Source of the DNA: Clytia hemisphaerica
Taxonomy: Eukaryota; Cnidaria; Hydrozoa; Leptothecata; Clytiidae
Assembly: GCA_902728285.1 (NCBI GenBank)
Contig: CACVBU010001199.1
Span: 103,844-167,843, forward strand
Reading direction: 5' to 3'
DNA length: 64,000 bases
A program made the translations under genes and the position numbers. This document shows positions 24,393 to 63,078 of this stretch, piece by piece (position 1 is the first letter of the stretch; every line of letters starts with the position of its first letter). The notes under the pieces were generated by a model. The model did no database searches. It saw only the letters and a list, made by a program, of their open reading frames with translations, and had not been told where the DNA came from.

Positions 24393-24644
24393 CACGTCTT
24401 TTTTTGAGAACATCTTAAATTTTTGAAGTTTTTGCATGTTCTTAACTTTTTGAGTTTCAAGCCTTAAAATGTTCTTAATATGTTCTTATTTTCTGCATTC
24501 TGAGAGTATTTTTGTCGATTTTACTAAAGAATCGGGTGTTTTAGAGTTTGCAAGACCTTAATTAAAATGTTCTTAACTTGTTCTTAATATTTAGGCCACA
24601 GAGACCTTATGTTCTTATATCGTTTGTTCTCATAAGAAAACTTG
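24393..24644 (+). mobile_element. TAAGAAC-family MITE
   Basis: Flanked by TA; begins CACGTCTTTTTTTGAGAAC. Contains pairs such as GTTCTTAATATGTTCTTA and GTTCTTAACTTGTTCTTA at 11 bp spacing. The right end is slightly decayed (AAAACTTG then TA). Confidence 0.8.
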
Positions 24645-25245
24645 TACAGTTTGTATAATATTCATAAACTTGCCTTTACCTGTGCTCTGACCTCCAGTTC
24701 CAGTTAGCATCGATAGTGCAAACTTGCGCAGCCAGGACGGGTTCCTTCACACTGCCTCAACGACACATTAGGTCACGGCATTATATAATATTGAAAACTT
24801 CCTAAATTAATCAAGTTTGCCTTAGATAGAAAAAATAACACTTGAAGTCAAACATGAATACCTAAAATGGTATTTGTTGATTGAATCTTAAAAAATATTG
24901 GAACAAGTCTCACTTTCGACCGCAAACTTCTTTCTAGAAGTGATCAAATGTAACAAACTGCTTGCTTGCTGTTTATTTTGGCGACTAGGGTACTTTTTGA
25001 TTTAACTTTGCGTTAAGTGAGGCTGATACAATAACAACAAACAAAGCTTTCAAAACTTGGTTTTGTTGGTCCAAAATACAAAGATACAAAAATGACTTTT
25101 GGACCAAACCTCTCCGGCTAAAGTCTTAATTGTTCATGTAACAATGTTCAAGCAATAAGCACTCACGTGACGTTTTTCTGCGAATTTATGATGTTTGATA
25201 TTTTGTCTCCTTTGGCATTTGCCAGCCAATATCTCATCAAACATT

Positions 25246-25382
25246 TTACTAAGAAATTGGGTGTTTTAGAGCCCACAAACCTTAAAATGTTCTTAACTTG
25301 TTCTTAATAATGACTTCAATAACAACAATATAGGTCATCGAAGCCTTACTTTCTTGCATAGTTTGTTCTTATAAAAAACGTG
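25246..25382 (+). mobile_element. Truncated TAAGAAC-family MITE (right half)
   Basis: Matches the right half of the family from AAGAAATTGGGTGTTTTAGA to the terminus ATAAAAAACGTG before TA. The left half is missing. Confidence 0.75.
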
Positions 25383-25383
25383 T

Positions 25384-26666
25384 AGAAAACCCCGGGCGTG
25401 ATAAACTTAGAAATTAGCCCATACTATTCACATTTTTATGATAAGGTCTTCGTGGGAGAAAACCTGTCAAAAATTATCAATATTTCCCCAAATGACAAAA
25501 AAAAACTATTAATGCATATTGTTTCTATGATGTCCCAGTTTCTTGTCTACGAGACCAAAGTCCTTGTGGTCCAGTGATTTTGTCTTTTGGGGAATTCCCC
25601 TATATGAATAATTGATATGCATGATATGACTTATCATACTTGTTCTACCCAATAGAAAATTTGTTGTATGAATGCTACAAATATTCAGCGCATTATTGAC
25701 ATTTTCTCGCGAAACTTATATTTTTGCGTCAAATCACAAACATGTGAAACCAATATCAACCTACGGATATCTTAGAAAGGTGGATTTTATCCCTTATACT
25801 CGAAAGTCCTTCAAATTGTTTCAAGAAATTTATTATGCATTAGTCACAGCAGTCACTTAATGGTTTTATGTTTTCACAATCTTTAAATTATGATGTCGAT
25901 TTGTTTGCCAATATGTTATAAGGTTCCATGGAAACTTGTTTAGGTGTGACGGTGTCAAACACATACTTTTGGATTTTTTCAAAATTTTGGTACAGTTGAT
26001 ATCTCAGAGCTTATCATTCATGTCCACTTCGTACTCCTTTGAAAAAGGGTTTCGTGCATCAGCTTTAGGTCTACTTTAGACGGTCAATTTTCTTAATTTA
26101 CCGATGGTCAGAACCACACAAAGCCTTTAATAAGGTTACTTAGGCAATGGGTTGATAAGGCCTTTCGTGGAACTTTGGTAATCTCAGCATGATTGGACAA
26201 TTTACTCTCTAACGGGTAACACAGCATTTATAAATCAATGGTTTGTCTCTGTTTGGGGTGAGTAAACGCCTGCTTTCTCCTAACGTTTTTAAGGAAACAT
26301 TTATCATCTCTTTTCCCACCGATCTTTAACGCCTTCGAAAGTGTTAAGAAGTTTAAATTAAGCCCACCATGACCTTTTGAAAACGCTTTTTTCAAATTTT
26401 CTGACACCAAGCGTTTGCAAAATTTCTACAAAGAAACTATTTGCAATATTTAGTTACCTCATTACTCACACAATGCATTGTAATGTAAGTTAAGCTTAAA
26501 CGAAATTTGATCACGTGGGTGTGAGGCATGAGATTTAGTGAGTGGGAGTCCGTCATCGTGCGAACAAGTAATCTGTATGCAAAGAGAATTGATCTCAGGT
26601 TTTCAAGAATTCTATTGGATTGCGTTAACTGATATTTGTTGCAAGCGACTCTCAACTCAAATCTCG
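25384..26666. other. Non-coding, no feature recognised
   Basis: No coding or repeat signal that can be supported. Confidence 0.5.
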
Positions 26667-26748
26667 CATACAGAACGTTGTTTAAACGTTTATCTAACGT
26701 TATATAAACGTTGTGAACATTAGATGAACGTTAAAACAACGCTATGTT
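26667..26748. mobile_element. Diverged AACGTT-rich miniature element
   Basis: Five or more AACGTT/AACGT cores in about 80 bp, arranged as in the intact copy at 63850-63934 (shared AACGTTTATCTAACGT, AGATGAACGTTAAAACAACG). The outer CAGCTGG termini have decayed. Confidence 0.55.
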
Positions 26749-26749
26749 A

Positions 26750-28344
26750 TATTCAACCCATGCATGTTTTCTGGTTTTTTATGTTAATTAGATTTATTTT
26801 TAAGAAACCGACTTAAAATCCCTTTTGATTCATATTACTCCAAGTCATAACTCCTTCCTTTTAAAGTAATATTCTATCAGGGAGGGAAAATAGGTCCAAA
26901 AAATTGCTCATTTTGTTCGACGCCCCTTAAGTAAGCATGTACTGACGTCAACCAAATGTTTTGATATTACAAAATCGCTTAATCGAACACTGTCATTTTT
27001 GTTGTTTCAAAAAATTCATTTGGATGAGTTTCTTGAGAAGCTAGTCCCACGAATTTCCCTAAAATTACTTTTTTTAAGCCCAAAGATAATTATTTTGTGA
27101 AATATCTTCTCCACAATTATCTCACCGCTTTAATCTCGTCACGAATTATATGCAATTTCTAGTTTTCATGTTTTCTATGTTTAGGATCGTTCAAAATTTT
27201 GATGGAAAACAAACTTTGAATGATGGGGTTACTTAAAATAGTTTTGAGAATCACACCACTACAAGATCAATTTGTGTTGTTCTTTTAAATCTCTTCTTCA
27301 AAACCTCATAGGTTTGAGTTTGTGGTTTTTCATGTACAGAGAGTTCTAGAATCCGCCATCTTGCTTGACTTTTCTCTCACGTCGTCACAATTATTATGTT
27401 CGAACACTATTATAAAAATTCAACCTTCTTTTCAATTTTTCGACGCCAGACACAATAGAAGGAAGGTCCGTTCTTTCACATTCAAATCCAACAGAATTGG
27501 TATAATTGGTGGTACCAATAAATCATACATTATCGAAGGAAAAAACACGACTAAGAGTAGTAAGGTAGTACGCACCTACTTGGATAGTTTTTAGAGGGTG
27601 AATCGGCTACTCGCAAATTCTTTGAGGTAGCCTTCAGGGACAAACTCAGGAGGTTGTATCTTTCATCACCAGTAGAAAAGGAAGGAATAATTGGTTATAA
27701 AAACTCTACAGGATTAAACCTGAGAGAATCAAATTCCCTGATTACTACGACAATTCTTTCTGCTAAAGCAATTTTTGCAAACATCATTACATCCTATTCT
27801 TTAGAGAGACAATCAATCACACTTCATCTCTAATCAACTTGCCAATTTAATGTCTTCAGATTAAATCTGTCATACGATGAGATAAAAAATGTTATAAGAA
27901 TTTCAAAGGTTTATAACCTTAGTTACTACTGGAGCTGGTTAAAGTGCTGAGATATATTTTCTTATAGCAAGATTTACTAGTAATGTTTTATTGCGAGCAT
28001 CTCAGCGGTATTTCTAAGTACACTTTTTGTTCTAAGAAATTCATGCCTCCTTTGTTTTTAACTCTATAATTTTGTTGACTTTCTGTGTCACCGTTTCAAA
28101 CATAATTTTTTTTTCCTTGACCTTGCGATGAAATGTGAAAAAAATCCTGGAAAATTTTATGCATTATAAGCTGTGTATCGTGACTGACTCTCCCCTGACT
28201 CCGCATTACATGAGACCTTTCTTGTTTCGAATGATATTTTCACTTAGGTTTTTAGTTCCTCGTTCACTTCAATAAAGATTCATTTTTAGTCCTATCGGTG
28301 TATAAACTTTTTGTATACATAGATAGCTTCTTATAAGAATAATA
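26750..28344. other. Non-coding, no feature recognised
   Basis: One TGACGTCA at 26943-26950. No gene recognised; the open frame near 27322 has no recognisable similarity. Confidence 0.5.
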
Positions 28345-28703
28345 CACTTTTTTTTATAAGGAACCTTAACTTGGCTCCGAGCCTGGAGTTCCTTATTTTG
28401 CCAGAGAGTTTCAGCTTCAAAGTTCCTTATCGAGTTCCTTAGTTACTTAGCTGTTAAGTTTGGATTTGCTAAGTGTGTAGCTTCTTTATCAGCATTTTTT
28501 GACATATTGAAAGGTGTTTCAGCAATATTTTCCGTCTTTTTATTTAGGTTGTTGTAAATGTGTGCAAGTTCAAATTGAACTCTTGCTGTTTCTTAACTTG
28601 ATTTTTTATTCTCAGCCTGAGCAGTTCCTAAACAATTCCTTATTTCTCAGACCATTTTCAACCTCAAGTTCCTTATAAACGTGTTCCTTATAAAAAAAAC
28701 GTG
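28345..28703. mobile_element. TAAGGAAC-family MITE (sister family)
   Basis: Flanked by TA on both sides. The left end is CACTTTTTTTTTATAAGGAAC and the right end, as reverse complement, is CACGTTTTTTTTATAAGGAA. The interior repeats GTTCCTTA and AATTCCTTA together with AGCCT/CAGCCTGAG modules. Its layout parallels the TAAGAAC family but with a different core motif. Confidence 0.75.
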
Positions 28704-28709
28704 TAGCTT

Positions 28710-30450
28710 CTTCCACTTCGAGCCTCTAATTGTTCTTAGTTTCCCCGGAAAATTTGCTAATTGTTCTTAGTAAAATTTGATTACAGTATTGCTTAGCCCT
28801 GCATCCCTCAATTTACCTAGAAGGTCCGAGCTGCTTTAAAGTTGCTCATATGTTTTGTTAAGTGAAAGAGTAAACGGTCATTTAACCTTCCAATAGTTTT
28901 CGTGCCAAGTGTTATACTGCGATTAATACTTAGGTTAATCGAGATTTATTTTTAGCTTTTCCTAGTCTATTTCGGTTTTCTTCAGAATGAAAGAGCACGC
29001 GAAAATATACTCCCTTTTTTATTTTTATCAATCAATAAATAGAGATAACCGTTCCATCTCTAACGTTTACACGCACGCAACGATTAAACCTTTCGTGTTA
29101 TAAACCGTTACCTAGATTAACAAACTTTCTATCAAAAGAAAGATATTTTTGAATTTTGTGTGATACAAAAACGTGTTCCTATCTCACTCGAAACAGTTTC
29201 TCGAGAAACCTCGCACATCTTTCGCACGTAACGTACATTCATGACCGTTTATACGACACTTATAAAACGTCCATAAGCTTTCAGACTCTATTGTTCATAC
29301 CGGCAGATGTTTTTCAAGTTCCTGCCATGAGATTTTACTTAAATTATGTAACACTTCAGCAGCTAGAAAATTATTTATCATTGATCGATGATTTGCTATC
29401 GCGAGAAACACGTGTTTCTCATTTTTCATTTTCCGCGAAATAATTGAATAATAATTAAGTAAAATTAGCAGGACACCTTGCCTGCTTGAGATTTCTTCTT
29501 TCATCTTCCTTTGCATCAAAATTTGCTAGCATGGTTCTATTAGTGCTAATTGTTCTTACATTTCTCGTTTGGTCCCTTCAACATTTCGCCTAAACGTCTC
29601 TTTGCTAATTTTTGATTTTTTTGTCCACCCTTAGTTTTTGAGAAAAAAAATATTTCCCAAGACGTTTTGCTACTTCCTACATTAAATTTATCTTATTTCG
29701 GTCAGTTTGTTATAAATAGTTCCTGTAAAACGACCTCTAAAAGGCCTCATATGTACAACGGATTGCGAAATATATTTGTAACTCCTGATAAGATGAATTT
29801 TTCCCACGTGCTCAGTTTAAAGTAGTTTGGAATATATAAAGCGAGCGATTTATCAGAATGCAAAAACCATCATAGAAGATCGTTATCGATTATTCGATTT
29901 CCATCTTACTTAGATTACATTTTCAAATGTTATTTTCAACAGTATCCTATGTTTTATGGTCGATAAGAGCGATTTAACAGGCGCCTCTCTTCTCTTGTAT
30001 TTTTCTCACGAAATTATAACATATCCATGAATAGAAAACTCTCATCTCAGTTAACGAGAAACTGTTTAGGTTCTGTTTAGGAGAAACCAGTTAATGAACT
30101 TCTTTACAGACGATGTTAATTGAGTGGAATCAAATACTGAACCATTCAACAAAGTTTGCGCAATGTTTAAAATAGTGAAATTCGATGATAACCGAAGGAT
30201 ATCGAGCTACATCGAATAGCAATCGATCCAATCGTCTTTTAACCCCCGAGTGAGCTTGTTACCCTTCTTGCGTGTGGCAATCGATATTTAATTTAAAGAT
30301 TGTGTTCAATTTCGCTGATTGGTTACACGTGCGATTCCACCTTGCCCATACTAAGGAACAACATTTACAGTTGATTATCGTTAAAACTTCTAAGTTGAAT
30401 TACCTAGCTCAAAAGTCATTCCTAAATAAGAACGCAATTGCTGTTGTAGC
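28710..30450. other. Non-coding, one perfect palindrome
   Basis: No gene recognised. GAGAAACACGTGTTTCTC at 29403-29420 is an 18 bp perfect palindrome centred on CACGTG. Confidence 0.5.
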
Positions 30451-30452
30451 TA

Positions 30453-30626: not shown

Positions 30627-30629
30627 TAT

Positions 30630-35559: not shown

Positions 35560-37270
35560 AATAGGAAAGAAAATACAATTTTGTGTTTGGAAAAGAAATA
35601 GAACGACGGTTATAAGTTTAATGTTAACTCTTTTCTTTTATTTTCTTTTCTTTTTAAAAACTTTTACAAAGTCTAATTTTTTTCTATATTTTAACTCTAT
35701 CTATTTCCAATAAAAATAGCAAAAATGAACAAAATAAGAGAAGAAAAACAGTAATAGTGCTATGTAGCTAGACAAGTCATGAAAAAACGCATCTGTCAAA
35801 ATTAGAACGGCTTGAAGAAAAACTAGAAAGTGAGGGAAAATCGAAGAAAAATTATTATGGCTCTAGAAAACATCAAAAATTAATTAAAAATGACAATATT
35901 GAGAAAAGAAATCAATTTTGAAAAGCTTATTTCGTGTTTCCTTTTTCATGTTTTTTAACCAAGATGAACGTGTAAAAAGTCAGAGGAAAACCCATTTAGA
36001 AATAGAGAGAAAAATAACATTTCCCTGAGTTGCAGTGTTGTAGTGGTGGTACGAGATTTCTGAAAGTAAAAATACTCGTCCAAAAAATTATTTTTATATA
36101 TTAAAAAAACAAAACATGAAAATCATGAAAATAATAAATTAGAAAATAAACAAAAATATATTTTTGCCTGCCCAATAATATCTCTATCAAATTGAACTTT
36201 GATTTGTATTTTTTCTTGAAAGCAACTCGAATTATTGAGATAAACATTTCAGTTAAATATCTCTGGTCGACTTTCTTTCTTGTGGAAAACTCAAAATGTT
36301 TAGTAGAAAAATAAAAGCAGTAAAGATAAAGTATATCAATTATAGCAATATATAAAACAAGGTAATAATCAACGCGAAAAAAATCACAATCAAATTTAAA
36401 GGTACTGAAACGTACTGTAGATTCAAAATTGCAATAAAATAATAATCGTATAATCGTAATAAAAGCTGACAGAAAATGTAATTTACTAAAACTAAATGTT
36501 CAATTTATAATAAATCTAGTTTTTTTATTTAAATTTTTATTTCTGTCGAGTTCATAGAACTCATATTATAAAATTATCTATAGCAGGCATACTGAACATG
36601 AAAACTATTTATGAACAGAAAAGCGAAAAAAAATAACAGAAAAATATATTTATAAGGTTTTTTAAAAATATACACTACAACACATGAAAACATTAAAAAG
36701 TTGAAATAACACAACTTGTTTTATATTTTTGGTTTTTTTCTTCAAAAAATTAATAAAAACGGATGTGTAAGTTATGTGCTAGGCACCACAAATAAAAAAT
36801 GTGCAACAGCGACATCAAATGACAATATTTTTTGGATTTCATTTTCAATATCCCCCCAAAAAAACAGATGAAAGAAAAGATGCAGAAACAAAAAACTGAA
36901 CAAAACAAAAACAAATCACAGATTCAAAAAAAAAATGCAACTTGTGCAAAATCTAATGAATCTGCACTCAACAAAGGAAATGAAAAAAATGTCAAAACAA
37001 AACAAAAAAATTGAAATTAAAAAGGTGGAACATTTTTCTCTTGTATACTAGCATCGCGCTAAGTCGAACACGTTTTCTTCTAAAAAAAATCAAAGAACAC
37101 TTTGTGTCAAGTTCAACAACAAATAAATTTGAAAAGATAATATATATTTAACAACTTCAGACACTGAGGTTCTTTGAGTTTTTACCTAGAATTAAAACGT
37201 GTAACTTTTTTCCTTTTTTAACGTTAAAAATATATATATATCATGCAATAGAGTAGAATCAACCATCTCA
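35560..37270 (-). other. Strand-asymmetric A-rich tract downstream of the PPP1R3-like gene
   Basis: About 1.7 kb in which the plus strand is very A-rich, especially 36100-37060, so the minus strand is T-rich. No gene or repeat family was recognised. Its position directly after the minus-strand gene suggests a long U-rich 3' UTR. It could instead be AT-rich filler. Confidence 0.35.
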
Positions 37271-37285: not shown

Positions 37286-37291
37286 TTTATT
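37286..37291 (-). promoter_or_regulatory. AATAAA overlapping the PPP1R3-like stop codon
   Basis: On the minus strand the last codons read CAA TAA A, so an AATAAA hexamer spans the stop codon. If used, the 3' UTR would be only 10-30 nt. Otherwise a later signal in the T-rich (minus strand) tract 35560-37270 is used. Confidence 0.4.
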
Positions 37292-37880
37292 GACGATTGG
37301 ACCAGGTCACAACAAAATCTTTGCCATCATTTACCATATTCAATCTTTTGCCTTTATACGTGATGTAGAAATTCACCAACAAAGTCCTCGTCTCGTCCAC
37401 TGTTTTCGTTTTTAATCTCGGTACCGGAACTTTAAACAAAAGTCTTCCAGATTTTCCAGGTACAACCAAGAAAGGTTCTGATGTTCTCCTCGTCCTCGAG
37501 TCCCAACTATAAATAACCCTAAGTAAATCTGTATCAATGGTTTTATCTTGAACTACAATGGTTCCAAAAACTGCTGCTTTCGTCGTAGCTACACTTTCCA
37601 GGTAGACAAAATTATTGTTTTCTTTTTGGCATTCTGTAAAGTTCGTTACTTTCGACAGCTTTCGTGCAGGAGTCTGAACAGAGTCTTTAGGTGAACATTG
37701 TCTTGATGGTAAATTGAAGTTCTTTACTAATAGATAACCATGATCGTCTGCAAATCTGACTGATTTTTGTGCTTTTCGTTTTTTATTCATATCGTCTGAA
37801 GAAAGTCTATGTGTTGTTTTTGTAGTAGTCGATGAGGTAATGTCGAAATTTCGCTTAGTTAATCCGCCGTCTAGCGTCAT
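37287..37880 (-). CDS. PPP1R3-like protein phosphatase 1 glycogen-targeting subunit (CBM21)
   Basis: Intronless, 197 codons. The ATG at 37878-37880 is the first after an in-frame TAA 22 codons upstream. Residues 39-45 (KSVRFAD) are an RVxF-type PP1-docking motif. The following DHGYLLVKNFNLPS matches the segment after RVxF in PPP1R3 proteins. Residues 92-192 form a CBM21 carbohydrate-binding domain (VYLESVATTKAAVFGTI, then VIYSWDSRTR with Trp126, then VNFYITYKGKRLNMVNDGKD). Family members tether PP1 to glycogen and promote glycogen synthase activation in the cytosol. It is shorter than vertebrate PPP1R3B/C (about 285-317 aa). The usual WDNN of the last CBM21 motif reads LNMVND here, so the Trp is missing. 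The paralogue cannot be assigned. Confidence 0.88.
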   Translation of the reverse strand: MTLDGGLTKRNFDITSSTTTKTTHRLSSDDMNKKRKAQKSVRFADDHGYLLVKNFNLPSRQCSPKDSVQTPARKLSKVTNFTECQKENNNFVYLESVATTKAAVFGTIVVQDKTIDTDLLRVIYSWDSRTRRTSEPFLVVPGKSGRLLFKVPVPRLKTKTVDETRTLLVNFYITYKGKRLNMVNDGKDFVVTWSNRQ

Positions 37881-39686
37881 GTTGTCGCGATGAGTATCAT
37901 GAGTTAAATGTGTCCATCCAGAAATTTCGCCTTGTATAATATCTGCTTAGCTTTGCTTTTGTTTATGTTTGAACAATACGTTCTTTTGTTCAAACTTTAC
38001 GACGTCAAACAATCTTTTTTATTGTTTTCTTTGTAAACTTCCTTATAAGGAGATTTGCAAACATGGAATAACGGACGATTTGATCATGAAAGAAAGGAGA
38101 AAGAGAAAAGCTTATCAAAGCGAATAGAAGGTTTTTATTAAAAAAGAGATTCAGAAATCTAATTAAATAGCTAAAGTATAAAAATCTGCCAAAACTGTTT
38201 AGATGAGGTTTTATATTATAATGTCACCTTTTTTAGCTTTTTTTAGAAGGATATTTAGTTGGGTAACAAATAAGTTAGGGTTTCCCCTAACCTTTTTAAG
38301 CCTCTATATCGACGCTTGTAATCTATTGAGTCGTCAGAAATATCTTTTTGTCTATTCGGGAAATAATTAAACATAAATATTTTTGAAAGCTGCACAATTT
38401 TAGAAAAAATCTTTGCACTATATGAAAACATGTCGTAAACAGAGTGCAAGTGTAACAACAAGGTCATTGTTCGTCTTTTGATCGGCTCTTCGACCTCGTA
38501 TTATTTTAAACATGGCTGATTTTTATACAAAGTATCGAATGAACATTATATGACAACTGATAAAGTTACATTGCGTGCAAAAAAGAAAACGCCGTGTGTT
38601 TCTTCCTGCCAGTTTTATAACTCTATAGCACAAAAAATCTAAATGTCATACGATACTTTTTTCAAAAAATCCTCGATTCTTTTTGTGCATTGCGCAACAG
38701 CCTGTCAAAATCGTGTTTGCTTTATTTCAAGTACTTAAGTTTCCATCAAAAAGTCCTAATTACTGCTTGAAGGTTAACAATAGATTTTTTTATTTACATT
38801 ATGTCAGTATCTGGTGCGCTCTTTTTAAGATATGACACTTTCCAAAGTTGACAATGCTTTCAGAATATCTCTTAATCGCTAAATTGTACCAAAGGGGCCC
38901 TCCGTCAATTTCTGCCTATAGATTAATAATTTTGATTGCAATATCATCTTTGCGTGTCTTTTTTTTTCTTTATCAAAGCGATTTCAGCAACCTTTCACTA
39001 ATTAAGTTATCGCTTTTATTCTTTTCACCTGAGTACACTCGATGGAGAGAGGAGAGTCATTTTAACAATTTTGTAAATCGTATTAAGAATAATTACTTGC
39101 AAAATCATTTAGATGGCAACTAATCACAGCCTTTTGTTTAATCACCTTTTCTTAATTCGTCTATTTCTCCCTATTTCTTCACTGCCAGTCTTGCCACTTT
39201 TAATATTCGTAATCTAGATGTGATGATCTCAATGCCCCCTCGTTTTACTAGTTAAATACTCCTACTGTCCTACTGTACTTCGCTTTGGAAAATTTTAAGT
39301 TTTGAAATTAATCTTTAATAATGTGTCTCATTAGAATTTGGGTCCACCGAGCAAACACAAAAGGATAAAATATTTAGGCTGAAAAAGTATTATGTAATGG
39401 TATTGTATCAAGTGTTAAGTCACGTTTTAGGGATGGGAAATGGCTGTACGAAAGAAACTTTCATAGCAGTTTTCCTAAAATTGATACTAAACCCAGTTCT
39501 AAAGGTTAATCATGTCAAAGGATCTCAACTGTTGGATTTGTAATATTTTTTCGTGAATTGATATTTTCTGCAAAAGTTTGCACTTTAAATCATTTATACG
39601 TCATAATCTTACTTTTTCACACCTTGCTCGCCTATTTTGGCATTGTATTCTAGAAACTTTGAGATTATACTTTCGGAATCTAATAT
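37881..39686. other. Upstream flank of the PPP1R3-like gene
   Basis: Contains the 5' UTR and promoter of the minus-strand gene, but no TATA box or other element stands out. No further gene recognised. Confidence 0.45.
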
Positions 39687-39863
39687 GCGTTCTTTTTATA
39701 AGAACATCCAAAAATCTTTAGGCCTTCTAATACTCCTAACTTTCATGTTTTTATATTCACCATTTTTAGAATCTGTAAATCCCTAAAATGTTCTTATCTT
39801 GTTCTTAATATTTGCCCATCGAAACATTATCCTATATAGTTTGTTCTTATAAAAACAATGTTC
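39687..39863 (+). mobile_element. TAAGAAC-family MITE, shortened and diverged
   Basis: Begins GCGTTCTTTTTATAAGAAC. Contains AATGTTCTTATCTTGTTCTTA (motifs 11 bp apart) and TATAGTTTGTTCTTATAAA near the right end. Both termini are mutated. Confidence 0.65.
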
Positions 39864-39864
39864 G

Positions 39865-41298
39865 ATATGATATTAACGCCCTCAAACTGCTAAACAAGAG
39901 ACCTATATTCTGCTGCAAATTACTACACAATGTCGAACTGGTACTTATTCAGTAATTTCGGTATATTCGAGCTGTCAAAAATGATCAGAATTAATGGGAC
40001 CTCTAATGACGTCTTTAAAATTTAAATTTTCATGCATGTTTTTAAAGTAATGGCTGTTCGAAATGGTGGTTGTTTTTTTTTGTTTGCTTAGTTTACTTAA
40101 ATACTGGTCTAATTAGTTTTTATAATTGCCTATATAATTTTCCATTTTCTAATGACTTTGACATTCATATGTGACATAATTTGTGAGAGAGCTGCTCCCT
40201 GTTTTACAAATTATAGCCTAAAGTCTGAAAAGTACACGACAGGAAGTTGTTCGGAAGAAACGCTTCAAACTGAATCCGGATAATGGAATATTCCATTGAA
40301 TTTTTGCAAAATTGTTTCTCTTATTCAGATAATTTACTGTGGAGGTAAACTCGAGGTGTTGCAAAAAAAGTTCGCGTGCATAGCTCTGATATTTACAGCT
40401 TTTTTAACAATGCCAAATAAGAAGAAAGCTATAATTATAACAGTTACGTTAGATATACCAACTTGGTGCTAACTTTTCAATAGAAAATGGGAGGTTCTTT
40501 ACAGCTAAACATTAGACCGTAATGTTGTTCACTTTCCTTTTGTTCTTTTAAGTAACTCGAGAATGAATGTAAGAGTTTTGGGGTAGTTTTACACGTTAGT
40601 GTGAAAAGGCTTGAAGCTTCTTTTCTTGGCCTACAAAACCCTTTTTTGTTGTTGATTAGATGTATATTTAGACTTACGTGATCGTGGTGTTAAGATATAT
40701 TTTGTTATCTTTGTTTGTCTTGTTCTCAGTCCCCCAATTCTCTGCGATCTTTATATTATTAGCCTGAATCTTTATTGGGTTTTAATAGTACTTTCAAGAT
40801 GCATTACCCAGGCAGGATCAGGATCCACCCTCACATCAGGTCAAAATCTTCGCCTTTTCCAGATTCTGTTTTTATTCACAATGCCAAAAACCTTTATTTG
40901 ATGATAAAGTACTGTAGACCCTCATTATAAAGTGTACCTAATTTTTCTTTGTTTATGTTTTTTATTATAATGAATCTTCTGCAGTGTTTGTTTTCCAAAT
41001 CAATGCTCTCGAAGAAGGCTCTTTCTACACTTTGATTCATCAGCTGCTTCAAACATAATAAACCTAAACAAATATCAACCTTTTTTTGCTCTTTTCGACG
41101 AATCTTTCGGTACCCTTTTCTTATTAGTACAGCTCTGCAACTTACAATTCACTTTTTCAATAAACTTTTTTTTGCATGAAATCCACCTTCACCAGCTAAA
41201 TGTTTTTCATTTGCAAAATCTTTAATGTGAAAACACAAATAAACAGTTTTCAATTTTAATGTCTTCAACGTTTGAAATTATAATTCGTATAACTACAT
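39865..41298. other. Non-coding, no feature recognised
   Basis: AT-rich sequence with no supportable gene. Confidence 0.5.
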
Positions 41299-41299
41299 A

Positions 41300-41554
41300 C
41301 ACGTCTTTTTTTATGAGAACATTTTTTGAAGCCTTTGGATGTTCTTAACTTTCTGAGTTTTAAGCCTATAAATGTTCTTAACGTGTTCTTATTCTCGCTC
41401 TTATTCTCATTTTTTGAGTAATTTTGTCCATTTTTTTTAAGAAATGGGGTGTTTTAGAGTCTGCGAAGCCTTAAAATGTTCTTAATATGTTCTTAACATT
41501 TTGGCTATCGAAGCCTTATATTCTTATATAGTTTGTTCTTATAAAAAAAACGTG
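41300..41554 (+). mobile_element. TAAGAAC-family MITE, near-intact copy
   Basis: Flanked by TA; termini CACGTCTTTTTTTATGAGAA and AAAAAAAACGTG. Contains GTTCTTAACGTGTTCTTA and GTTCTTAATATGTTCTTA (11 bp periods). The terminal pair GTTCTTATATAGTTT / GTTCTTA has 15 bp spacing. Four AGCCT modules lie between. Confidence 0.85.
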
Positions 41555-41556
41555 TA

Positions 41557-43985: not shown

Positions 43986-44220
43986 TACACTCTCAGTTTT
44001 AAAGGTTTTTCCTGAGACCTATACGGTGTCTCAATTAGCGATCCGTTATCGCAGCCCCTAAAAGGTTTCGTTGCAAATCAGACTCTAGGGTCTTGATTCA
44101 AATAAGACCCTTAAGTGGTGCCCATCAAGACCACGTGTTGTGTTCTGAAAAAGACTTTTAAGGGTCTGGGTTTAGACACCCATGGGTCTTGTTTGAAACG
44201 AGACCTCCGTAATCACAACA

Positions 44221-44556
44221 CCTAAAGGTCTCATTTGATATTTAAGACCAGTTAAGGTCTGCTTCTATTCCAGACCCAATGGTCTCATTTGAAATAAGAC
44301 CCTTCAAAAAGTCCGTTATCGCAGCCCCTAAAGGTCTCATTTGATATTTAAGACCAATTAAGGTCTGCTTCTATTCCAGACCTAATGGTCCCATTTGAAA
44401 TAAGACCCTTCAAAAAGTCCGTTATCGCAGCCCCTAAAGGTCTCCTTTGATATTTAAGACCAGTTAAGGTATGCTTCTATTCCAGACCCAATGGTTCCAT
44501 TTGAAATAAGACCCTTCAAAAAGTCCGTTATCGCAGCCCCTAAAGGTCTCTTTTAA
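44221..44556. repeat. 106 bp tandem repeat, about 3.2 copies
   Basis: The phrase GTTATCGCAGCCCCTAAAGG recurs at 44315, 44421 and 44527 (period 106); a related copy lies at 44046. Each unit contains AAGGTCTCATTTGATATTTA and two AGACC motifs. Confidence 0.85.
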
Positions 44557-47974: not shown

Positions 47975-48213
47975 ATACTATTTTTTTATGAGAACATCCA
48001 AAATTTTTGAAGCCTTCGGATGTTCTTAACTTTTTGAGTTTTAGGCCTAAAAATTTTCTTAACATTTTATTATTTTCACCCTCTTTTGAGTATTTTTGTC
48101 CATTTTCCTAAGAAATTGGGTGTTTTAGAGTCCGCAAAGCCTTAAAATGTTCTTAACTTGTTCATAAAATTTTGGCCATCGAAGCCTAATGCTCTTGTAT
48201 AGTTTATAACGTG
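47975..48213 (+). mobile_element. TAAGAAC-family MITE, partly decayed
   Basis: Begins with a T tract then ATGAGAACATCC. Carries GATGTTCTTAACTTTTTGAG and AATGTTCTTAACTTGTTC, and ends TTATAACGTG before TA. Confidence 0.7.
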
Positions 48214-48215
48214 TA

Positions 48216-51200
48216 TAGAAAACCTGAATGAAAATCAATGAACTTTTCGTCAAAACATGAAAAAAAAAATTGAGTAGACCTCTTACAGCATTTAAAATGA
48301 ATACCCCCCCCCCTAACCGGTTATGATTCTTGAATCTACATGATCCATCTTTGCAGTTCTTCGTGACTGAGAATTTCTTAATCATCTTCACTTAAATCAA
48401 CTTCCTGCCTGGATTTCATTAATGTGGTAATTATTTGACTCTTTGACGATCGAGTAAGTAATAATCACTTATCAATGCCATCCATCGTTATGAGATATTG
48501 GACGAGTTTCTGTGTGGTTTATCTATTAGAGCAAGGTTGACATTATCAGGTGGTCTTGAAGGGTACAAATACAATGAGTTTGAGATGTCCTTTAGATTTT
48601 ACAGATCTTTATCTTCCCAAAACGAGACAAAAGTCTCCTCTTTGTCAGTTTTGGCACTAATGCTATTTTAAACCAACAGAATAGATACACATTGCTGCAA
48701 AACGAAACTGAACAGAACATTTGAACTTGATTGGCTTATTTCACGAACAAAGAAAGCCCAATTCTACACTTTATACCTCTAAAGAATCGATCATTTTTGG
48801 GGTATTATTTTCCAATCTACTTAGGAAATCTGTTATTATGAAAAGGGTATTTTTTGTCCGTTCGAGAATTTTCTAATCAAACACTGGGTTATTTTTTGGT
48901 CAATATCAGTATTACCTAAATCAATTATTGTTTGTTGCTAACTAAGCATATATTTATTTCCTAATTGCATCGAAATTACAAATGAATGGTCGTAATGGCA
49001 TTTTTTCGTCTGAATAAAAGGTATTTACTGCGTTGGACGAAAAGGTGATTTAGGGAAATTGTGAACTGCCAACCTAATCACCTATTAGCACTCTATCTCA
49101 TCATCAAATTTGCATTATTTTCTTTTCAAAGCTTTCCGATGTTTTTAAAAAGTATTTCAAGAAACCATGGAGAGATTTGATGTTTTTGCTATGGAAATTT
49201 GTGTTTGTTGTATGACGTTTGTTATGCTCTACCGAGTTTTTTTACTCGGGTTTTCCAGAATAACCGTATTGCGCAACGTGTGTTACTTTTAAAAATATTT
49301 ATGACTGTCTGTTCGGGAATTTTCTTGATCAGTTTTTCAGTAGTTTAGGTCATTGATATGGACCCATTGTCTGATTCATCAAATAGGGAGATATTCTCGC
49401 ATCACTTTATACACATATGAAGTTTCAATTCCATGTAGGTCAAAGTTAACGAATGCCGATTTGCTCGATATTTCCTTATCAACTGTGGAAACCCTTTATT
49501 TAACATCAAAACCATTTTATCTCAAAACAATGCAGCAGTCACCCGGACCTCCTAAAGCGAATGAGAGCTTGATTAAAAAGGATTTGGGTGGAGTTATTGA
49601 AAAGATGAGGAAATGAGGTCATATTGTATTAATTCAAATATGACCTTCTGTTATGGTGAAATCTTTTTACTTGGTGATGAAGCCCTCTTTGTATTAGCAT
49701 CAACACAGTTTATCCTATTCACTTCCAACTATGAATCCTTATAATAAAGCTGCTTTATCGCACTCGAGCCTTCAGTTATAAGCAATTTAGTCATTCCCTG
49801 ATACTTGCTTCTTTGCGGCACATCCAGTTTTGTAAACTATGGTATCATCGTTTGTATTTATTAGACACAGGAGTGGTTATACGAAATAGGAACAGGTTCT
49901 TAAATAGGAAATACAGAGAAGTTCCAGGTTTAAAGCAAAGCCTCAACCTGTTCCCAAAATATTCTTAATAAAAATTGTTTTTAATTACTCTATTATGAGT
50001 ATAGAATCTTCTTCTCTTACCAACAGTCCGTGTCATTATTGTCGTGTTGTTTTGACTTTAAGATGAGGTCATCATCGCTTCACTACGGGAGATGAGATCG
50101 TACCATACTAATCCGTGAAATTTCTCAATCTTTCTTCCTAAGTTACAAAACATATTTCTGAGCCATTAACAGAACGAGCAAATGGCGTTTCGATACGTTG
50201 TAGCTGATTTTAAACTTTTAAACAGAATTAATATAAGATAAATCAGGCTACTAGTAGCGAGGGTCAAATTTGTTTCTTGCTCTACGAGAGACCGATTAAT
50301 TCAGAACAGCTTTGGTTTTGCTAAGATTTTCAAAGACCGCAAAGACTAAAAAAGCTGTCTTACGCTCGAAATTTCTAAGGTAATAAGGCAAACCTCCATT
50401 TTACTTTCAAATAATAAAAAAATTACAGTTTTCAGATCAGTGACTGACGACTGCATGTTTCTCTCCGCCATAAAAAAGGGCGTGAACCTTCGCAAAGTTA
50501 ATCCTCTCAAGGAAATAATGTAAGTCAGTGAATTATGACTGTACTACATCATTATAAACATGTGTTTCCAATGTTTTTTAGAGGAGCTTACAGTTCAACA
50601 CTCCCCTTTTGCAGATAAGCTCCTTGTCAACATTGACATCTCCAGGAAATGAAGGCTTTAGATAACGTTTTTAATTCTAAATTTCTCTTCTGTTGCACAA
50701 AATGTGTTACTTAAGTATTCCGAAATTAACTTACTTAAATTCTTTTCCTTGCTTCCTTCTTTAACGTACATATGACGTCAAGTTCAGCTTTAAATGATGC
50801 TGTTGTTACTGACTTAAAGATAGGAAGCTAAGTACAGTTAATAACCTTGCTAAATGAAATCACCAGTACGCTGCCTTTCATTAACTATTTGCTAAGGGTA
50901 TTTTGTATCTATTTGACTCTATAAGGTCGAACCAGAATTTTTGACACCTTCTATAATCGAGCCCAGACCCCTTTGGTCCTTTTGTTGAGTATACAGGTAT
51001 TGAGTAGGATGACCCAACCAAAATGGATATCTCAAAATGGAGCAGAAGTGTTGAGCAATATCGAAGTTAAAATTTTAAATCTATCATGTTGACGCTTATC
51101 TCAAGAGTCTATTTTCTTTTCTAATTCACCTGACAACCTCACATCCAAACAATGGGAAAACTCTCATACAAAATCATGGAAATACTTAAGATTCTAAACT

Positions 51201-51719: not shown

Positions 51720-52003
51720 AAAACTGTACTAGTAAAGAACGTTTTTTAAAGAATTCCAAAGCTTTGACCGGAACAAACCAAAGGCTACTGAAAACCACAG
51801 TTTGTCTAGAACCGTATTTTTAAACATGGGTGTTTAACTCTTGACTTTTCACTCAGGAGTTTTCACTTTTGCTAATGACAACACCAGGAACACCCATGTA
51901 TAAAAATACGGTTCTAGACAAACTGTGGTTTTCAGTAGCCTTTGGTTTGTTCCGGTCAAAGCTTTGGAATTCTTTAAAAAGTGTTCTTTACTAGTACAGT
52001 TTT
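51720..52003. mobile_element. 284 bp near-perfect hairpin (foldback) element
   Basis: Arms of about 113 bp (51720-51832 and 51891-52003) are reverse complements with about three mismatches. Both start AAACTGTACTAGTAAAGAAC and include CTTTGACCGGAACAAACCAA and GTTTGTCTAGAACCG. They enclose a loop of about 58 bp. No coding capacity. No clear target duplication. Arm identity implies recent insertion or gene conversion. Confidence 0.85.
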
Positions 52004-55000: not shown

Positions 55001-55238
55001 ACATGCACGTGAACAAGAAATAAAATTGACATGGTTACTTCTCGGATTGAATTTCGTAATGTTGCGACATTTTTAATGCGACTGAATGAAAGTGATGATA
55101 ATCGCCCTCCATATTATCATCACTGTGATTGGTACAAGATAAATGAAATTTATGGGTGGGCCATGTGTATTAACTTGACCTTAGATAGTTACACTTAGTA
55201 TAAATTAGAGGTAACTGTTTTTGCCCCAAAGTAAGATA
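52005..55238. other. Non-coding, no feature recognised
   Basis: Two TGACGTCA palindromes (53545-53552, 54462-54469). A 118-codon minus-strand frame at 52559-52915 has no recognisable similarity and is not called. Confidence 0.5.
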
Positions 55239-55240
55239 TA

Positions 55241-55414
55241 CGATTTCTTTATATAAACGTCCAAATTTTTATAAGCTTTCTTATTTTGTGAATATTTTTG
55301 TGCAATTTTTCTAGGATGGGTTTGCGAAGCCTTAAGGTGTTCTCAACCTGATCTTAATATTTTAGCCATTGAAGCCTTACGATCTTAAATAGCTTGTTTT
55401 TTACAAAGAACGTG
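55241..55414 (+). mobile_element. TAAGAAC-family MITE, deleted and diverged
   Basis: Ends AAAGAACGTG before TA. The interior keeps GCGAAGCCTTAAGGTGTTCT and CCATTGAAGCCTTACGATCT with degraded GTTCTTA motifs. About 80 bp shorter than intact copies. Confidence 0.6.
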
Positions 55415-55809
55415 TATTGTTCATCCCTTCATTGTCATTATTCTTCAAAGTTTAAACTGTAATTCACTTCTTTGGTGGCAAAGGTACTATTTTTAGTTCA
55501 CAGTGACTTTACTTGAGAGACAATACACGTATACAATACCCTGCCAGGCTTAACTGTAAATGAACGGTGTCATTTCCATGCATATCACTTAGTAGGGTGT
55601 CCACCAACCGGTTTCGTTCGCGTTCAACATATAAAGAAAGCTTCATTGTCTGGTCAAATTACCAAACATTTGAAAATTGCGAAAGGAAGAAATTTTACAC
55701 TGTCTTGAAGTTTGATATGATGTTAAAAACGAGGTTTTAAACTGTTAAGACTTTTGAATTTTACACGGTTGTTCCTTCTTTGATGTTGAGTGAGATTACC
55801 TCTACTATA

Positions 55810-56024: not shown

Positions 56025-56029
56025 TATAC

Positions 56030-56850
56030 GGGTTCCCCCTTAAATTGACTCTTCAAACCTATTCTTTAAATAATGATGTTTTGTCCGAAATTGGAAATGA
56101 AGAACAGCAAATACGAAAAATCTAACGGTTTATTGATATGAAAAATATATTTAACAAGCTGCAAGCTCGTTTTAAACGTCAAATTTGGAATTCCTTTTGT
56201 TTCGACCGTGTTTATAAAAGTAACTTCTTCTGTAAATTTATAAACAAGATACGTTTGTGTGTTCTTATTGTCAATGTTTGATTTTTGGACTTTGAATGCC
56301 CGACCATAAGGTAACGTAATTTATGTCTCTCTGTTGTAATATTAGCTATTTGAGATGTCTTATTTCGGGAATTAACCAAATTGGTTGGAAGAATTACTTT
56401 TGTTAAATTTATCCGGTTTTTTTCATTAATGAAATAATAATACCCTTGAAAAGAATTAAAACCAATGATACTGCAAAACAATTGATTTATTGTTCTAGAC
56501 AACGTGTCAATATTTTCTCATTGAATTTGAAGAGCGACATAATTATAATTTTCAGACGGTATAAGCTACCCGCAATGTAACACGATTATATTTCCTTCTA
56601 AATTGTAGGGGGTGGTTCTATTTCCACCGTCCAATTAATCTTACTCCGCCCTCTGGGAGAAAACTTAATTTTCAATCAATCATTATGAAACGCCCTTTTA
56701 TCCCATCACAATGCAATCCATCATGTATTGTTGCTGTCTGATCAGCTCTTGTTGTTTTTGCTGACGTCAACAAATTAATGAGTCATTTAGCTGACTTTTC
56801 GAGGCACTTTTGGAAATTTGAGATATGTACCCTGCAGTAAGAAAATGGCT
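56030..56850. other. Non-coding, no feature recognised
   Basis: One TGACGTCA at 56762-56769. No gene recognised. Confidence 0.5.
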
Positions 56851-56851
56851 A

Positions 56852-57105
56852 CACGTTTTTTTTTTATAAGAATGTCGAAAATTTTTGAAGCCTTCCGATG
56901 TTCTAAACTTTTTGAGTTTTAAGCCTAAAAATGTTCTTAAAATGTTCTTATTTTCACCATTTTGTGAGTATTTTTGTGCAATTTCCTAAGAAATTGGGTG
57001 TTTTCGAGTCCACAAAGCCTTAAAATGTTCTTAACATGTTCTTAATATTTCGGCCATCGAAGCCTTATGTTCTTATATACTTTGTTCTTATAAAAAAAAA
57101 ACGTG
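56852..57105 (+). mobile_element. TAAGAAC-family MITE, near-intact copy
   Basis: TA on both sides; termini CACGTTTTTTTTTTATAAGA and AAAAAAAAAACGTG. Contains GTTCTTAAAATGTTCTTA and GTTCTTAACATGTTCTTA (11 bp periods) and the terminal pair at 15 bp spacing. One of the best copies in the window. Confidence 0.85.
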
Positions 57106-57107
57106 TA

Positions 57108-58588: not shown

Positions 58589-58656
58589 GGTGGTATAAAA
58601 CAATAGGTGGTATAAAACAATAGGTGGTATAAAACAATAGGTGGTATTAGAACAAT
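58589..58656 (+). repeat. 17 bp minisatellite, 4 units
   Basis: Four direct copies of GGTGGTATAAAACAATA; the last has two substitutions (GGTGGTATTAGAACAATA-like). It ends ten bases before the MITE at 58666. Confidence 0.9.
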
Positions 58657-58665
58657 AAGCGACAC

Positions 58666-58874
58666 ATGTTTTTTTATGAGAACATCCAAAATTTTTGAAG
58701 CATTCACATGTTCTCAACCTTTTTAGATTTAAGCCTGAATTTTGTGACAATTTCTAAGACATTGGTTGTTTTAGAGCTGTACATAAAGCCTTAAAATGTT
58801 CTTAACTTGCTCTTAACATTTGGCCCATCGATGCCTTTGTTCTTATATAGTTTGTTCTTATGTAAAAAATCATG
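58666..58874 (+). mobile_element. TAAGAAC-family MITE, shortened
   Basis: Termini CATGTTTTTTTATGAGAAC and AAAAAATCATG. Interior has AATGTTCTTAACTTGCTCTTA and TTCTTATATAGTTTGTTCTT. About 45 bp shorter than intact copies. Confidence 0.75.
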
Positions 58875-58876
58875 TA

Positions 58877-59666
58877 TAGAAGAATGAAATGGTGGAGGTT
58901 GTCGAGGAAAACGAAGGATCCTGCTTACAGTAATCCATTCTCCTTATCGCTGTACAGTGATTGAGGGAGCTCCAAAAAACCGACATAAGAGAAGCGAAAT
59001 ATGAGATGAAATGATTGACTCCTTTGTCAACATGTTACCCGATCTTATTTCATCAACACACGACATATTGTACTAGTAAAAGTACAAACTGCGTATCTGG
59101 TTTATTTTTGTTATGAAAAGCTCAGTAAAAACCGAATGCGATTAACTTCTTGAGATCACAGTTATCTTTTGATGTGTTTTTCTAATATAAATTATTGACC
59201 TATTTTTGTTAGAAAGTTTTTGATGATCTAAGTTAGAATTAAGAACATCTTTTAAATTTGTCGACATTTATTTGGGACAAGCTGGAGTTTTTACAAGCTC
59301 TTATTTGATTTGGTTGGTCGTTAAGATGTAATAAAAGAATCTTATTACTTTTTCTAAAGAACGCGTCATCTCTATCACTTTAAATGACCAATTAGTGAAG
59401 TATCTTGTAAAAACTCCAAGGCATCTCATTTATTTGAGCATTTATAAGTTGAACCTAAAATGTTGCTGGTGATTTTGATCAACCCCCTCTTGTCGTTCTT
59501 AATTCATCAGCTTTGGATTGTTATGAACAAATCAACCTTGAAATCTTTTCGGTGCGAACATCAGTTCTGTCAGAATATAATTATAATCTCTGAGTATTAA
59601 GTTGATACTGTGTAAGTGCAAGACAATACAACTTTTCGAGTACGTGAATAAACAAAGGTCTCCTTG
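58877..59666. other. Non-coding, no feature recognised
   Basis: Nothing supportable. Confidence 0.5.
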
Positions 59667-59668
59667 TA

Positions 59669-59887
59669 CACGTTACTTTTTTATAAGAACGAACTATATA
59701 AGAACATGATAAGGTTTCGATAGCCAAAATATTAAGAACAAGGTAAGAATATTTGAAGGCTTTGCAGACTCTAAAACATCTGATTTTCAACATCTGATTT
59801 TCAACATCAAAATTATTTTTAGGCTTAAAACTCAAAAGGTTCCGAAGGTTTAAAAAGTTTTGGATGTTCTTATAAAGAAAAAACGTG
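59669..59887 (-). mobile_element. TAAGAAC-family MITE (minus orientation)
   Basis: TA on both sides. The left end CACGTTACTTTTTTATAAGA continues with a clear terminal pair (TAAGAACGAACTATA then TAAGAAC, 15 bp spacing). The right end is GTTCTTATAAAGAAAAAACG. Confidence 0.8.
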
Positions 59888-59889
59888 TA

Positions 59890-62660
59890 TTTACTCTACG
59901 TTAGACCTCAATTTACTCAGACCTCGACGAGGAAAGCATACTCAGAGGAAACCCTTTAGGATAGAATTCAAGGGTAAAAAATTAAGGTAGAGCTTTGATA
60001 CCAAAATTTGCTCTAAAAAGGGTTTATGTTAGTTTTTGAATTCACATTTCTATATACAAATCCTGTCAATTCAAATCCAGTTATCTTGAAGTCATCAACG
60101 TTTTTCTCATCAGTCTGGGAAAGCAGTCAAACATTACAAGATTAAAACGAAAGCCCAAATCAAATAATCACTCAATACTGAATTTGACAGCTCACAAATG
60201 GACGTTTGCAAATAAAAGCATTATAACTGCAATATTTCACAGGTCCATGCTGCTTCCTTATCCAACAATCTGCGTTTATCGTATGATCTTTTTCCCAAAA
60301 CTAAATTCAAATCCAAATTATAGTATATTTCGGCGAGTCTGTCGTATTTTTAACCCGAATTTACCAACGATTGCATTATGGTACCCAAAACTAAGATGAC
60401 TGATATGAAGATGAAGAAACATTCTACTTTTTAAAACATATGGCATAATACTTTTTAGAATATCCAAACCTCGCTGATGATTTGAAATATATGTTCAGAT
60501 TTTACATATCTTTCTTAGATATAAAATTACAGGGGCCAAATCTTTTGATACCCTTTGTAGGGGGTACCAAAAGATTTGCCTAAAAAACCTGGAGGGAATG
60601 GGAATACAGGGGGAGATTAAATAAAAAAGCGGGTCTAGAGATTTTAACCAATATAATCATAAAGAAATGGTCTGTCTTAAAGTAAAAATATGAAGCAACA
60701 AAACTCAAAAGTGTATCATTTGTACTGTGAAGTAGGTCTATTGTCTATTTTTGTTCATATTTGGCCGTTTTGGCTTGACTTCACAGAGGGCTGTAACTTT
60801 TATGTATTAATTCCGTTGCTTGAGTAAGTTACAAGACTTAAGGCACTTTTTATATTCACACTCATTACTTATAGGGAGAGAGAACACCTAAAGACTTAAA
60901 AGTAAAAGTGACAGCTTTAAAGGTCACAGATCTAATATACTCCCTCTTAGAATTACGATTCACTTTAGTGTGCTAAATTTATTATACTGTGAATATTTCA
61001 GGTATTTTTGTATCGGAGATAAAAAAGCCTTTACCAATGTTTAACTGTGTGCGGTTTGGAGAGAACATGACTTTTTATAACTAACAGTAAATTTGAAAGG
61101 TGGGACGATAAGAGTGTGACTAATTGTCATAAATAGAAACCACCCTTATTATTTTGGTATGAATAACAGTGTAAAACATTTTATTCACTTAAATTGAAGT
61201 GCGTTCTCTCGAGTTTTAAATGGACCCTTCCTTTAACATTGTTTTAATGTGACGTTTGTAACCTTGTAACTAGGGAAAGTCCTTCCTAATTGTCATGGTA
61301 TTCTAGAAATTTGAGGTATTAGGTAATAGTGTATTTCATTATGTAACTAAGACAGTGGTTGCCTAGTACCTACGTTTAAACTACACCCAAATGAAAGTCA
61401 ATTTTAGGGTAATTTGATTCTTATTCTTCTAGTCTGAGAGGATAATAATATTTTGAGAAGTCCTTCAACCTCTTTGGCAACTATCTGCTTCGTACGTGAG
61501 TGGCCAGGGTTTTAATCTCTAAGTGTGAATAAATTCAGAATCAGAAGTAGTTCTAAACACTGGCGATTCTTTCCGTTTGCACCTGGGGGGGGGAGGCACT
61601 CGATTCAAAAACGACCATACGTGTGGCCCAAAATTAGGCCTTTGAAGTCGGACCGCGAGAAGAAAAGAAAAAAGATTTTACCATTTTCAGGCAAAATATG
61701 GTCAGATTTTCCAAATTTTACATCCTTAGAGTGCATCTTTGCTGATTTCGACCCTTACAGTGCACTTTGGGAAGCTTGGGAAATATACCCTTAAGGGCTG
61801 CACGTATGGTAGGTCATTTACCTTGAGCGTCCCGCCCCCGGGCTTTTGCATAAACCTGCTTTGAACTTGACATGTCAATCTTTGCCATTTTACTTGGCTT
61901 TTGTTTAAGGTTTGCGTTGTGTGTTAAATTACTTCCTTCCCCCTTTAAAAGAATGTCAGATACGTTCTTTGTATTATGCCGAATGAAATAGTTTTATATT
62001 TTTGATGGTTTCCGGCCACACTTTGTCATATCTGTCAACATGACTTGACCCCCGTTTTTATTTTTCATTCACATACGAATTCTTGTTGATTTATCAGGTA
62101 ATCCGGGGGTTACGTTTGAGACACGATAGATCGAGTCTGTATTTAGATTACACAATTTTTGTTGCAAAGTATGGAAAGGACTTGGTTTGATAAACATTGA
62201 GATTAAAAATGGAAACCCCAATCTACAAACTGTTTAACTTGTCTTTCTAAGATCATCCTTCCTATATCCTACTTTAAATCTTACGCAGATTTCTCCACGT
62301 AAATTAAACTTATTTACTTTGTATAAACTGCTTTCAGAGTTTTGTTTGTCCTTTTTGTAAGATTGTTTTCTTTTCGAGTTAATCTACCCGTCTGAAATGA
62401 ACCGTTTTTCAGGATTTTGATAATGGCCCACTTTCAATCCTGTTGGTCTATTTGTACTCATTTTGAGTTGTTTTAAAGGGTTTAAAATTGTGTTTTTGTC
62501 TGTTGTAGTTCTAGGGACCTAAATGACCCATTGCAGCAACACTTTCAGTCATTTCAGCAATTAAAAAGTACTAAAAGCAAATAATAAGATTCATTTTTAA
62601 TCTGCAATAAATCTTCTTGCTCAAAACACACCAATACACGAATATGATTCACCTTCTTAA
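59890..62660. other. Non-coding with one small hairpin
   Basis: A 46 bp hairpin at 60535-60580 (CCAAATCTTTTGATACCC against GGGTACCAAAAGATTTG). Otherwise no gene or element recognised. Confidence 0.5.
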
Positions 62661-62662
62661 TA

Positions 62663-62783
62663 CATGTTCCTTTATAAGAATGTTCAAAATTTCAGATTTT
62701 CTTACCAGCTTTTTGAATTTTAAGCCTAAAAATGTTATTCTTATGGACACAAGCCAGCATTATCTTTTAAATAAAAAAACCTG
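62663..62783 (+). mobile_element. Degenerate short TAAGAAC-family copy
   Basis: TA-flanked; begins CATGTTCCTTTATAAGAATG and ends ATAAAAAAACCTG. About half the family length, with a large internal deletion. Confidence 0.55.
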
Positions 62784-62806
62784 TACGACTACTCTCTGTT
62801 GGTATA

Positions 62807-63078
62807 CACGTTTTTTTTTAAGAAACACACTTTTAAGAAACATGAGGCTCAGCATGCCTAAAAACTAAGAAACATCTAAGAAACATGCTGAGGCTGAGAA
62901 TGAGAAAATAACATTTTTTAATTCGGTTTTTTTAAGAACCTTCCAATCCAGCCTTTCATAAGGCTGATTATGTCAAAAAGTTTAGAAACGTGTAAGAAAC
63001 ATTTAAGGCTCAAAAGGCCGATTTCTTAAGAAACATTGAGGCTGCTTGGTAAAACTAGTTTCTTAAAAAAAAAACGTG
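62807..63078. mobile_element. TAAGAAAC-family MITE (sister family)
   Basis: TA on both sides. The left end is CACGTTTTTTTTTAAGAAAC and the right end GTTTCTTAAAAAAAAAACG. The interior repeats AAGAAAC at least eight times, with the left terminal pair at 15 bp spacing and TAAGAAACATC then TAAGAAAC at 11 bp. It has AGGCT/AGCCT modules like the TAAGAAC family. Confidence 0.8.

Follow-up and report, generated by a model that had tools for sequence, protein, structure and literature searches.

A shared eight-site layout with a family-specific core in three types of miniature transposable element from Clytia hemisphaerica

In Spm/En, the subterminal repeats recognised by TNPA act as cis-determinants of transposition, and the repeated motifs of soybean CACTA elements are taken as binding sites of a TNPA-like protein (PMC2613891). 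CACTA elements of animals and of a virus have CAC...GTG ends and a 2-bp target duplication (PMC6004678); the wider Chapaev-Mirage-CACTA (CMC) group has CA..TG ends and duplications of 2-5 bp (PMC12730594). A change of recognition sequence in a transposon, with many sites needing joint change, is hard to observe in most elements. The window analysed here is a stretch of 64,000 nucleotides from the hydrozoan Clytia hemisphaerica (assembly GCA_902728285.1, contig CACVBU010001199.1, positions 103,844 to 167,843, forward strand). It contains three types of miniature inverted-repeat transposable element (MITE), designated A, B and C, which have a common arrangement of eight short core sites; the core itself differs between them.

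Three element types and their eight-site layout

Three sister element types are supported, with a common motif layout and a core differing as a block. Both termini are present in four copies of family A and in the elements B and C:

56850..57107, plus strand: A element, core TAAGAAC; all eight sites readable, two with one mismatch
56867, 56900, 56933, 56944, 57027, 57038, 57069 and 57084: sites of the A element at 56850
41298..41556, plus strand: A element, both ends; through a deletion, the left-end sites lie about 6 bp further in than in the consensus
24391..24646, plus strand: A element, both ends; right terminus CTTG
59667..59889, minus strand: A element, both ends, internal deletion
62805..63080, minus strand: family B, core TAAGAAAC; 276 bp if the TA at either flank is counted
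62819, 62834, 62866 and 62877 (span 62819..62884), plus strand: right-end sites R1-R4 of B; steps 15, 32, 11; all exact TAAGAAAC
62982 (TTAGAAAC), 62993 and 63027 on the plus strand, 63058 (outermost) on the minus strand (span 62982..63065): left-end sites of B
28343..28705, plus strand: family C, core TAAGGAAC; 363 bp, again counting the TA flanks
28357 (outermost) on the plus strand, 28388, 28422 and 28434 on the minus strand (span 28357..28441): left-end sites of C
28624 (TTAGGAAC), 28635 (TAAGGAAT), 28668 and 28683 (span 28624..28690), minus strand: right-end sites of C; last pair 15 bp apart

Family A was searched for in the window with an nhmmer profile built from four of its copies (cut-off E<1e-6). 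There are 12 copies, with E values down to 1e-77; the profile also matches element B (E 6e-8), which is not counted. The preliminary description of this DNA had placed the three families between 24393 and 63078, with about 12 copies of A. The families are where it put them, and two of the 12 A copies lie beyond that range. Relationship between the types can also be seen with blastn: the left 103 bp of B and the right 103 bp of C are 74% identical (E 1e-10), and B matches right ends of A at 72-73% identity (E 1e-5 to 1e-4). Searches with B and with C each recover their own place and, weakly, each other and A ends. Family A is old, since the mean pairwise identity of its eight long copies is 0.74 (range 0.63-0.87).

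All six two-ended elements are flanked by exactly TA at both sides, and there is no longer direct repeat. It should be noted that the ends were picked with a pattern containing TA; its presence is thus partly built in, but the lack of a longer repeat is not. The 2-bp length of this putative target duplication is judged by the flanks alone. Ends of CACG followed by a T-tract had been ascribed to all three families. The left end is CACG in five of the six elements but CACT in C, and the right end is CGTG in five but CTTG in the A copy at 24391; reduced to the CAC...GTG of the CMC group, the left end agrees in 6/6 and the right in 5/6 (TTG in the same A copy). The elements are short (255-363 bp) and non-coding, with inverted termini and TA flanks; several dispersed copies are found for A only (12). 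A, B and C are best explained as non-autonomous DNA transposons of the MITE kind, with TA as the probable target duplication.

For comparison, elements were oriented with the 15-bp pair of sites at the right (hence the minus strand for B, whose right end then corresponds to that of A), and site starts were counted from the ends. Alignment with MAFFT across families misplaced the left ends, so the layout was taken from these distances. The A consensus, B and C have a common asymmetric arrangement with four sites per end. From the left, with arrows for direction, the sites start at 17>, 50<, 83< and 94< in the A consensus, at 16>, 47<, 81< and 92< in B, and at 15>, 46<, 80< and 92< in C; from the right they start at 15, 30, 61 and 72 (A), 14, 29, 61 and 72 (B), and 15, 30, 63 and 74 (C). 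Measured at the TAAG end of the core, internal sites agree between families within 3 bp. They all run in the same direction, and the outermost left site alone is inverted. The preliminary description did not note this asymmetry; it had a 15-bp terminal pair in all three families. R1-R2 is indeed such a pair, with 15 bp in each family, but at one end only; the first step at the left end is 33/31/31 bp. Overall, the steps are 15, 31-33 and 11 bp at the right end and 31-33, 33-34 and 11-12 bp at the left.

Internal pairs about 11 bp apart, as previously claimed, are a feature of both ends: A and B have 11/11 and C has 12/11. They had been equated with one helical turn. Steps of 11 and 31-34 bp are near whole turns; the 15-bp pair corresponds to 1.43 turns. 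The sites therefore do not all share one phase, and the one-turn argument is limited to the 11-bp pairs. Any meaning given to the spacing is an interpretation.

The conserved portions, about 100 bp at the left and 85 bp at the right, hold all eight cores, as is characteristic of CACTA-like subterminal arrays. Middles vary freely in length and sequence, giving 255 bp for the A consensus, 276 bp for B and 363 bp for C. AGCCT boxes accompany the cores. Counted from the left, they are at 39/38/38 and 72/71/71 (A/B/C); counted from the right, at about 40 and 86. These AGCCT/AGGCT modules had been considered common to all families: four are at matching places in A and B, but C has two exact boxes and two with one mismatch (AGCTT for the second from the left, AACCT for the outer one at the right), which were looked for only after the others had been seen. 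Two additional boxes are found in the middle of B. Apart from the inverted outermost left site, an element can thus be read as a series of AGCCT-core modules in direct order.

The layout was compared with random expectation by taking six internal places from the A consensus and requiring a core in the same orientation, within 4 bp and with at most one mismatch. B and C each fill 6/6 places. None of 20,000 dinucleotide shuffles does so for either element (best 3 for B and 2 for C), and random placement of an equal number of sites reaches six in 1/200,000 trials for B and 0/200,000 for C. A family-wide consensus was built for A; B and C are represented by one copy each.

The cores can be written with one slot, as TAAG-AAC in A, TAAGAAAC in B and TAAGGAAC in C. 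The slot is uniform per family at 24/24 sites: empty in 8/8 of the A consensus, A in 8/8 of B, and G in 8/8 of C. Three B and C sites have another mismatch, with the slot base still of the family type; the remaining seven core positions are 96% alike. In the 12 single A copies the extra base is present in 0/79 comparable sites, of which 41 are exact TAAGAAC, 22 have one mismatch and 16 at least two; a further 17 of the 96 places are absent. The earlier claim that all motifs change together within a family is therefore borne out across copies in A, and for B and C in one copy each. The base following the core is A in 8/8 sites of A, A in 6/8 of B, and T in 6/8 of C. Two stray cores, an exact A-type core in B (62933) and an exact B-type core in C (28588), are both in the unconserved middles.

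Proposed mechanism and alternatives

The ends of these non-autonomous elements probably bind a transposase or a partner protein, related proteins reading different cores and every site having followed. A transposase or element-encoded partner would occupy the eight cores, i.e. a terminal site beside the T-tract and a subterminal array, and its binding may bend or join the two ends before excision. The anatomy suggests that the ends of about 100 and 85 bp are required for transposition and that the middle is free. The three families would answer to sister proteins which read TAAG-AAC, TAAGAAAC and TAAGGAAC; elements with all sites matching one protein would have multiplied, and the eight sites would thus follow the protein. 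They may have changed together either one by one under selection or through copying of modules. A slight surplus of core identity among the eight long A copies agrees with a protein-binding core: 0.893 of 421 core cells match the consensus, compared to 0.838 of 1392 other cells (Fisher p 0.005; cells are not independent).

Several observations weigh against this proposal. The main weakness is that B and C have one copy each in the window. Absolute positions are lost in two of the four two-ended A copies: 6/6 places are filled in the copies at 56850 and 24391, but 3/6 at 41298 and 1/6 at 59667, where indels are seen in the alignment. No transposase was found by Pfam in 76 of the 97 stop-to-stop open reading frames (ORFs) of at least 70 aa in the window; the other 21 are all in the first 8.1 kb. 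There are also animal relatives of CACTA with CCC rather than CAC ends (PMC4298943, PMC1636069). Lastly, the flanks leave room for copying of modules within an element. Ten-base flanks of the same site between families were compared with those of different sites within a family, using 20,000 permutations. Unmasked, same-site likeness is 0.439 against 0.334 permuted (6/20,000 as high); this signal arises because the flanks include neighbouring cores and AGCCT boxes. With cores masked it is 0.375 (1238/20,000 as high), and different sites within a family reach 0.389. With cores and boxes masked it is 0.368 against 0.336 permuted (3100/20,000 as high), and within-family flanks of different sites, at 0.416, are at least as alike as same-site flanks between families. 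Results are similar when a real A copy replaces the consensus. Flank likeness was therefore dropped as proof of site-by-site change. The masked values imply that spacers are hardly conserved while spacing is.

The preliminary description had suggested looking for a Tc1/mariner-like transposase. The elements might belong to Tc1/mariner, with a transposase which occupies several direct repeats per end, as in inverted repeat/direct repeat (IR/DR) elements, the story being otherwise the same; this has a minority chance of being correct. TA duplication is the rule for Tc1/mariner, and TA is present at both sides of 6/6 two-ended elements. Tc1/mariner elements have few transposase sites per end. The eight sites, the unlike left and right arrays and the adjoining boxes are more like CACTA subterminal arrays (PMC2613891), and CAC...GTG ends fit CACTA. 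Together with the apparent 2-bp duplication, the ends and subterminal arrays fit CMC at least as well as Tc1/mariner, and the elements are tentatively assigned to CMC. Neither the C(2)C/H(3-4)H DDE/D nor the paired-type helix-turn-helix DDE/D transposase was found in the 76 ORFs covered; the partner of a MITE may lie anywhere in the genome.

Alternatively, sites may be alike through duplication or gene conversion of AGCCT-core modules within an element, with the protein following or uninvolved. The A element can indeed be read as direct-repeat modules (AGCCT plus one core, or plus two cores 11 bp apart), the masked flanks are at least as alike within families as between them, and VANDAL target motifs evolve through tandem repeats which diverge together (PMC5735166). 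Repeated copying would, however, tend to disturb the eight places and odd steps kept in three families, and the outermost left site shifts too although it is inverted and alone. This explanation is credible but unlikely.

Any DNA-binding protein could make use of such arrays. They might be sites of host transcription factors, or a regulatory signal of some other kind, which the elements carry but do not need for transposition. The arrays are nevertheless limited to the conserved ends, begin beside the terminal T-tract, and differ between families even at the terminal sites; a regulatory role is improbable as their explanation. Chance in AT-rich DNA, conceivable with cores so short and AT-rich, is ruled out for practical purposes by the nhmmer matches and the layout shuffles.

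A stronger form of the protein-binding proposal is that the eight-site scaffold of a transposition complex stayed fixed through two exchanges of the recognised base, each made in step at all eight sites; the result would be three families which each obey only their own protein. This is possible, although doubtful. If true, new families arise via changed binding specificity, and the steps (no base, A, G at one place) are readable in one stretch of a genome. Fixed layout together with change at one core place makes the question open to site-by-site study.

Further copies and other features of the window

The remaining A copies, all found with nhmmer, are:

47975..48226, plus strand: A copy, termini damaged
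15442..15706, minus strand: A copy, right end intact; outside 24393-63078
58661..58876, plus strand: A copy, termini degenerate
13575..13828, minus strand: A copy; outside 24393-63078
25221..25384, plus strand: A copy, right half
55278..55416, plus strand: A copy, right half
39683..39863, plus strand: A copy, internal deletion
62659..62765, plus strand: A copy, left fragment, 40 bp from element B

A weak extra match at 55237-55284 may be the left end of the copy at 55278. Exact-pattern scans of viral contigs and genome contigs, in collections without animal genomes, gave no further copies. There is no Rfam match and no tRNA. When the window was scanned for further families (unknown core; steps 15, 45-49 and 56-61), the top scores were only the known ends of A, B and C; score-18 candidates at 35629 and about 6003 were taken as chance.

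Three fold-back structures and a tandem array are also present. The first, of about 850 bp (21655-22508), has several pairs of inverted arms, with complementarity of 86-92% and 75%; it is possibly another CAC/GTG element, with ends TACACC...GGTGT. The second (51720-52003) looks young; it has 115-bp arms which are 97% complementary and ends AAAACTGTAC...GTACAGTTTT. The third (2485-2726) has 41-bp arms, 90% complementary, and an adjoining CCTCAT direct repeat which could be a target duplication. The array at 44206-44554 has 3.3 copies of a 106-bp unit with 94% matches and is rich in GGTCTC/GAGACC.

Four ORFs on the plus strand (1455-1802, 7173-7595, 8225-8614 and 11794-12018) match the first or second beta-propeller of echinoderm microtubule-associated proteins (EML type), which fits animal DNA. 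With second, first, first and second propellers in turn, they may represent two genes or one long multi-propeller gene. The 219-aa ORF at 37287-37946 (minus strand) has no Pfam family above cut-off and no PDB match; it includes a KSVRFADD stretch, presumably reminiscent of the PP1-binding region of glycogen-targeting subunits.

Comparison with known systems

A search of openly licensed papers with a few word combinations gave no report of animal MITEs in which the layout persists and the core shifts as a block. As far as seen, the fixed eight-place layout with a shift confined to one slot is new for an animal MITE.

Sleeping Beauty, a Tc1/mariner IR/DR element, has a TA duplication, and each of its ends holds several transposase sites in fixed positions; the TA flanks and putative binding sites described here are comparable. 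IR/DR elements such as this have fewer sites than the eight described above and are not known to have an AGCCT-like second box.

MITEs of the CMC group from an ichnovirus, and ENS1_Cis of Ciona savignyi, have the same 5'-CAC...GTG-3' ends and a 2-bp duplication, to which the TA flanks may correspond; the available portion of that paper mentions no subterminal site arrays, and the likeness is one of described ends only (PMC6004678). Sister families with different multi-copy short motifs which change together are also found in the Arabidopsis VANDAL/VANC system, where related element-encoded proteins read them (PMC5735166, PMC10398659). VANDAL elements are Mutator-like, their tandem-repeat motifs change in number, and the function is anti-silencing (PMC5735166); in the Clytia elements the eight sites stay constant in number, order and spacing.

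The soybean CACTA elements Tgm1 and Tgmt* also have a short repeated motif, partly GC-rich and partly AT-rich, in subterminal arrays of which the left is unlike the right; these are two subfamilies in one species, and their motifs differ at six positions (PMC2613891). Unlike A, B and C, they are plant elements with 13-bp CACTA ends, a 3-bp duplication and many more sites (4 left and 24 right in Tgmt*), and the available portion of the paper mentions no fixed site-by-site layout common to the subfamilies (PMC2613891). In A, B and C, one layout of eight sites is common to all three types and the core differs at one slot.

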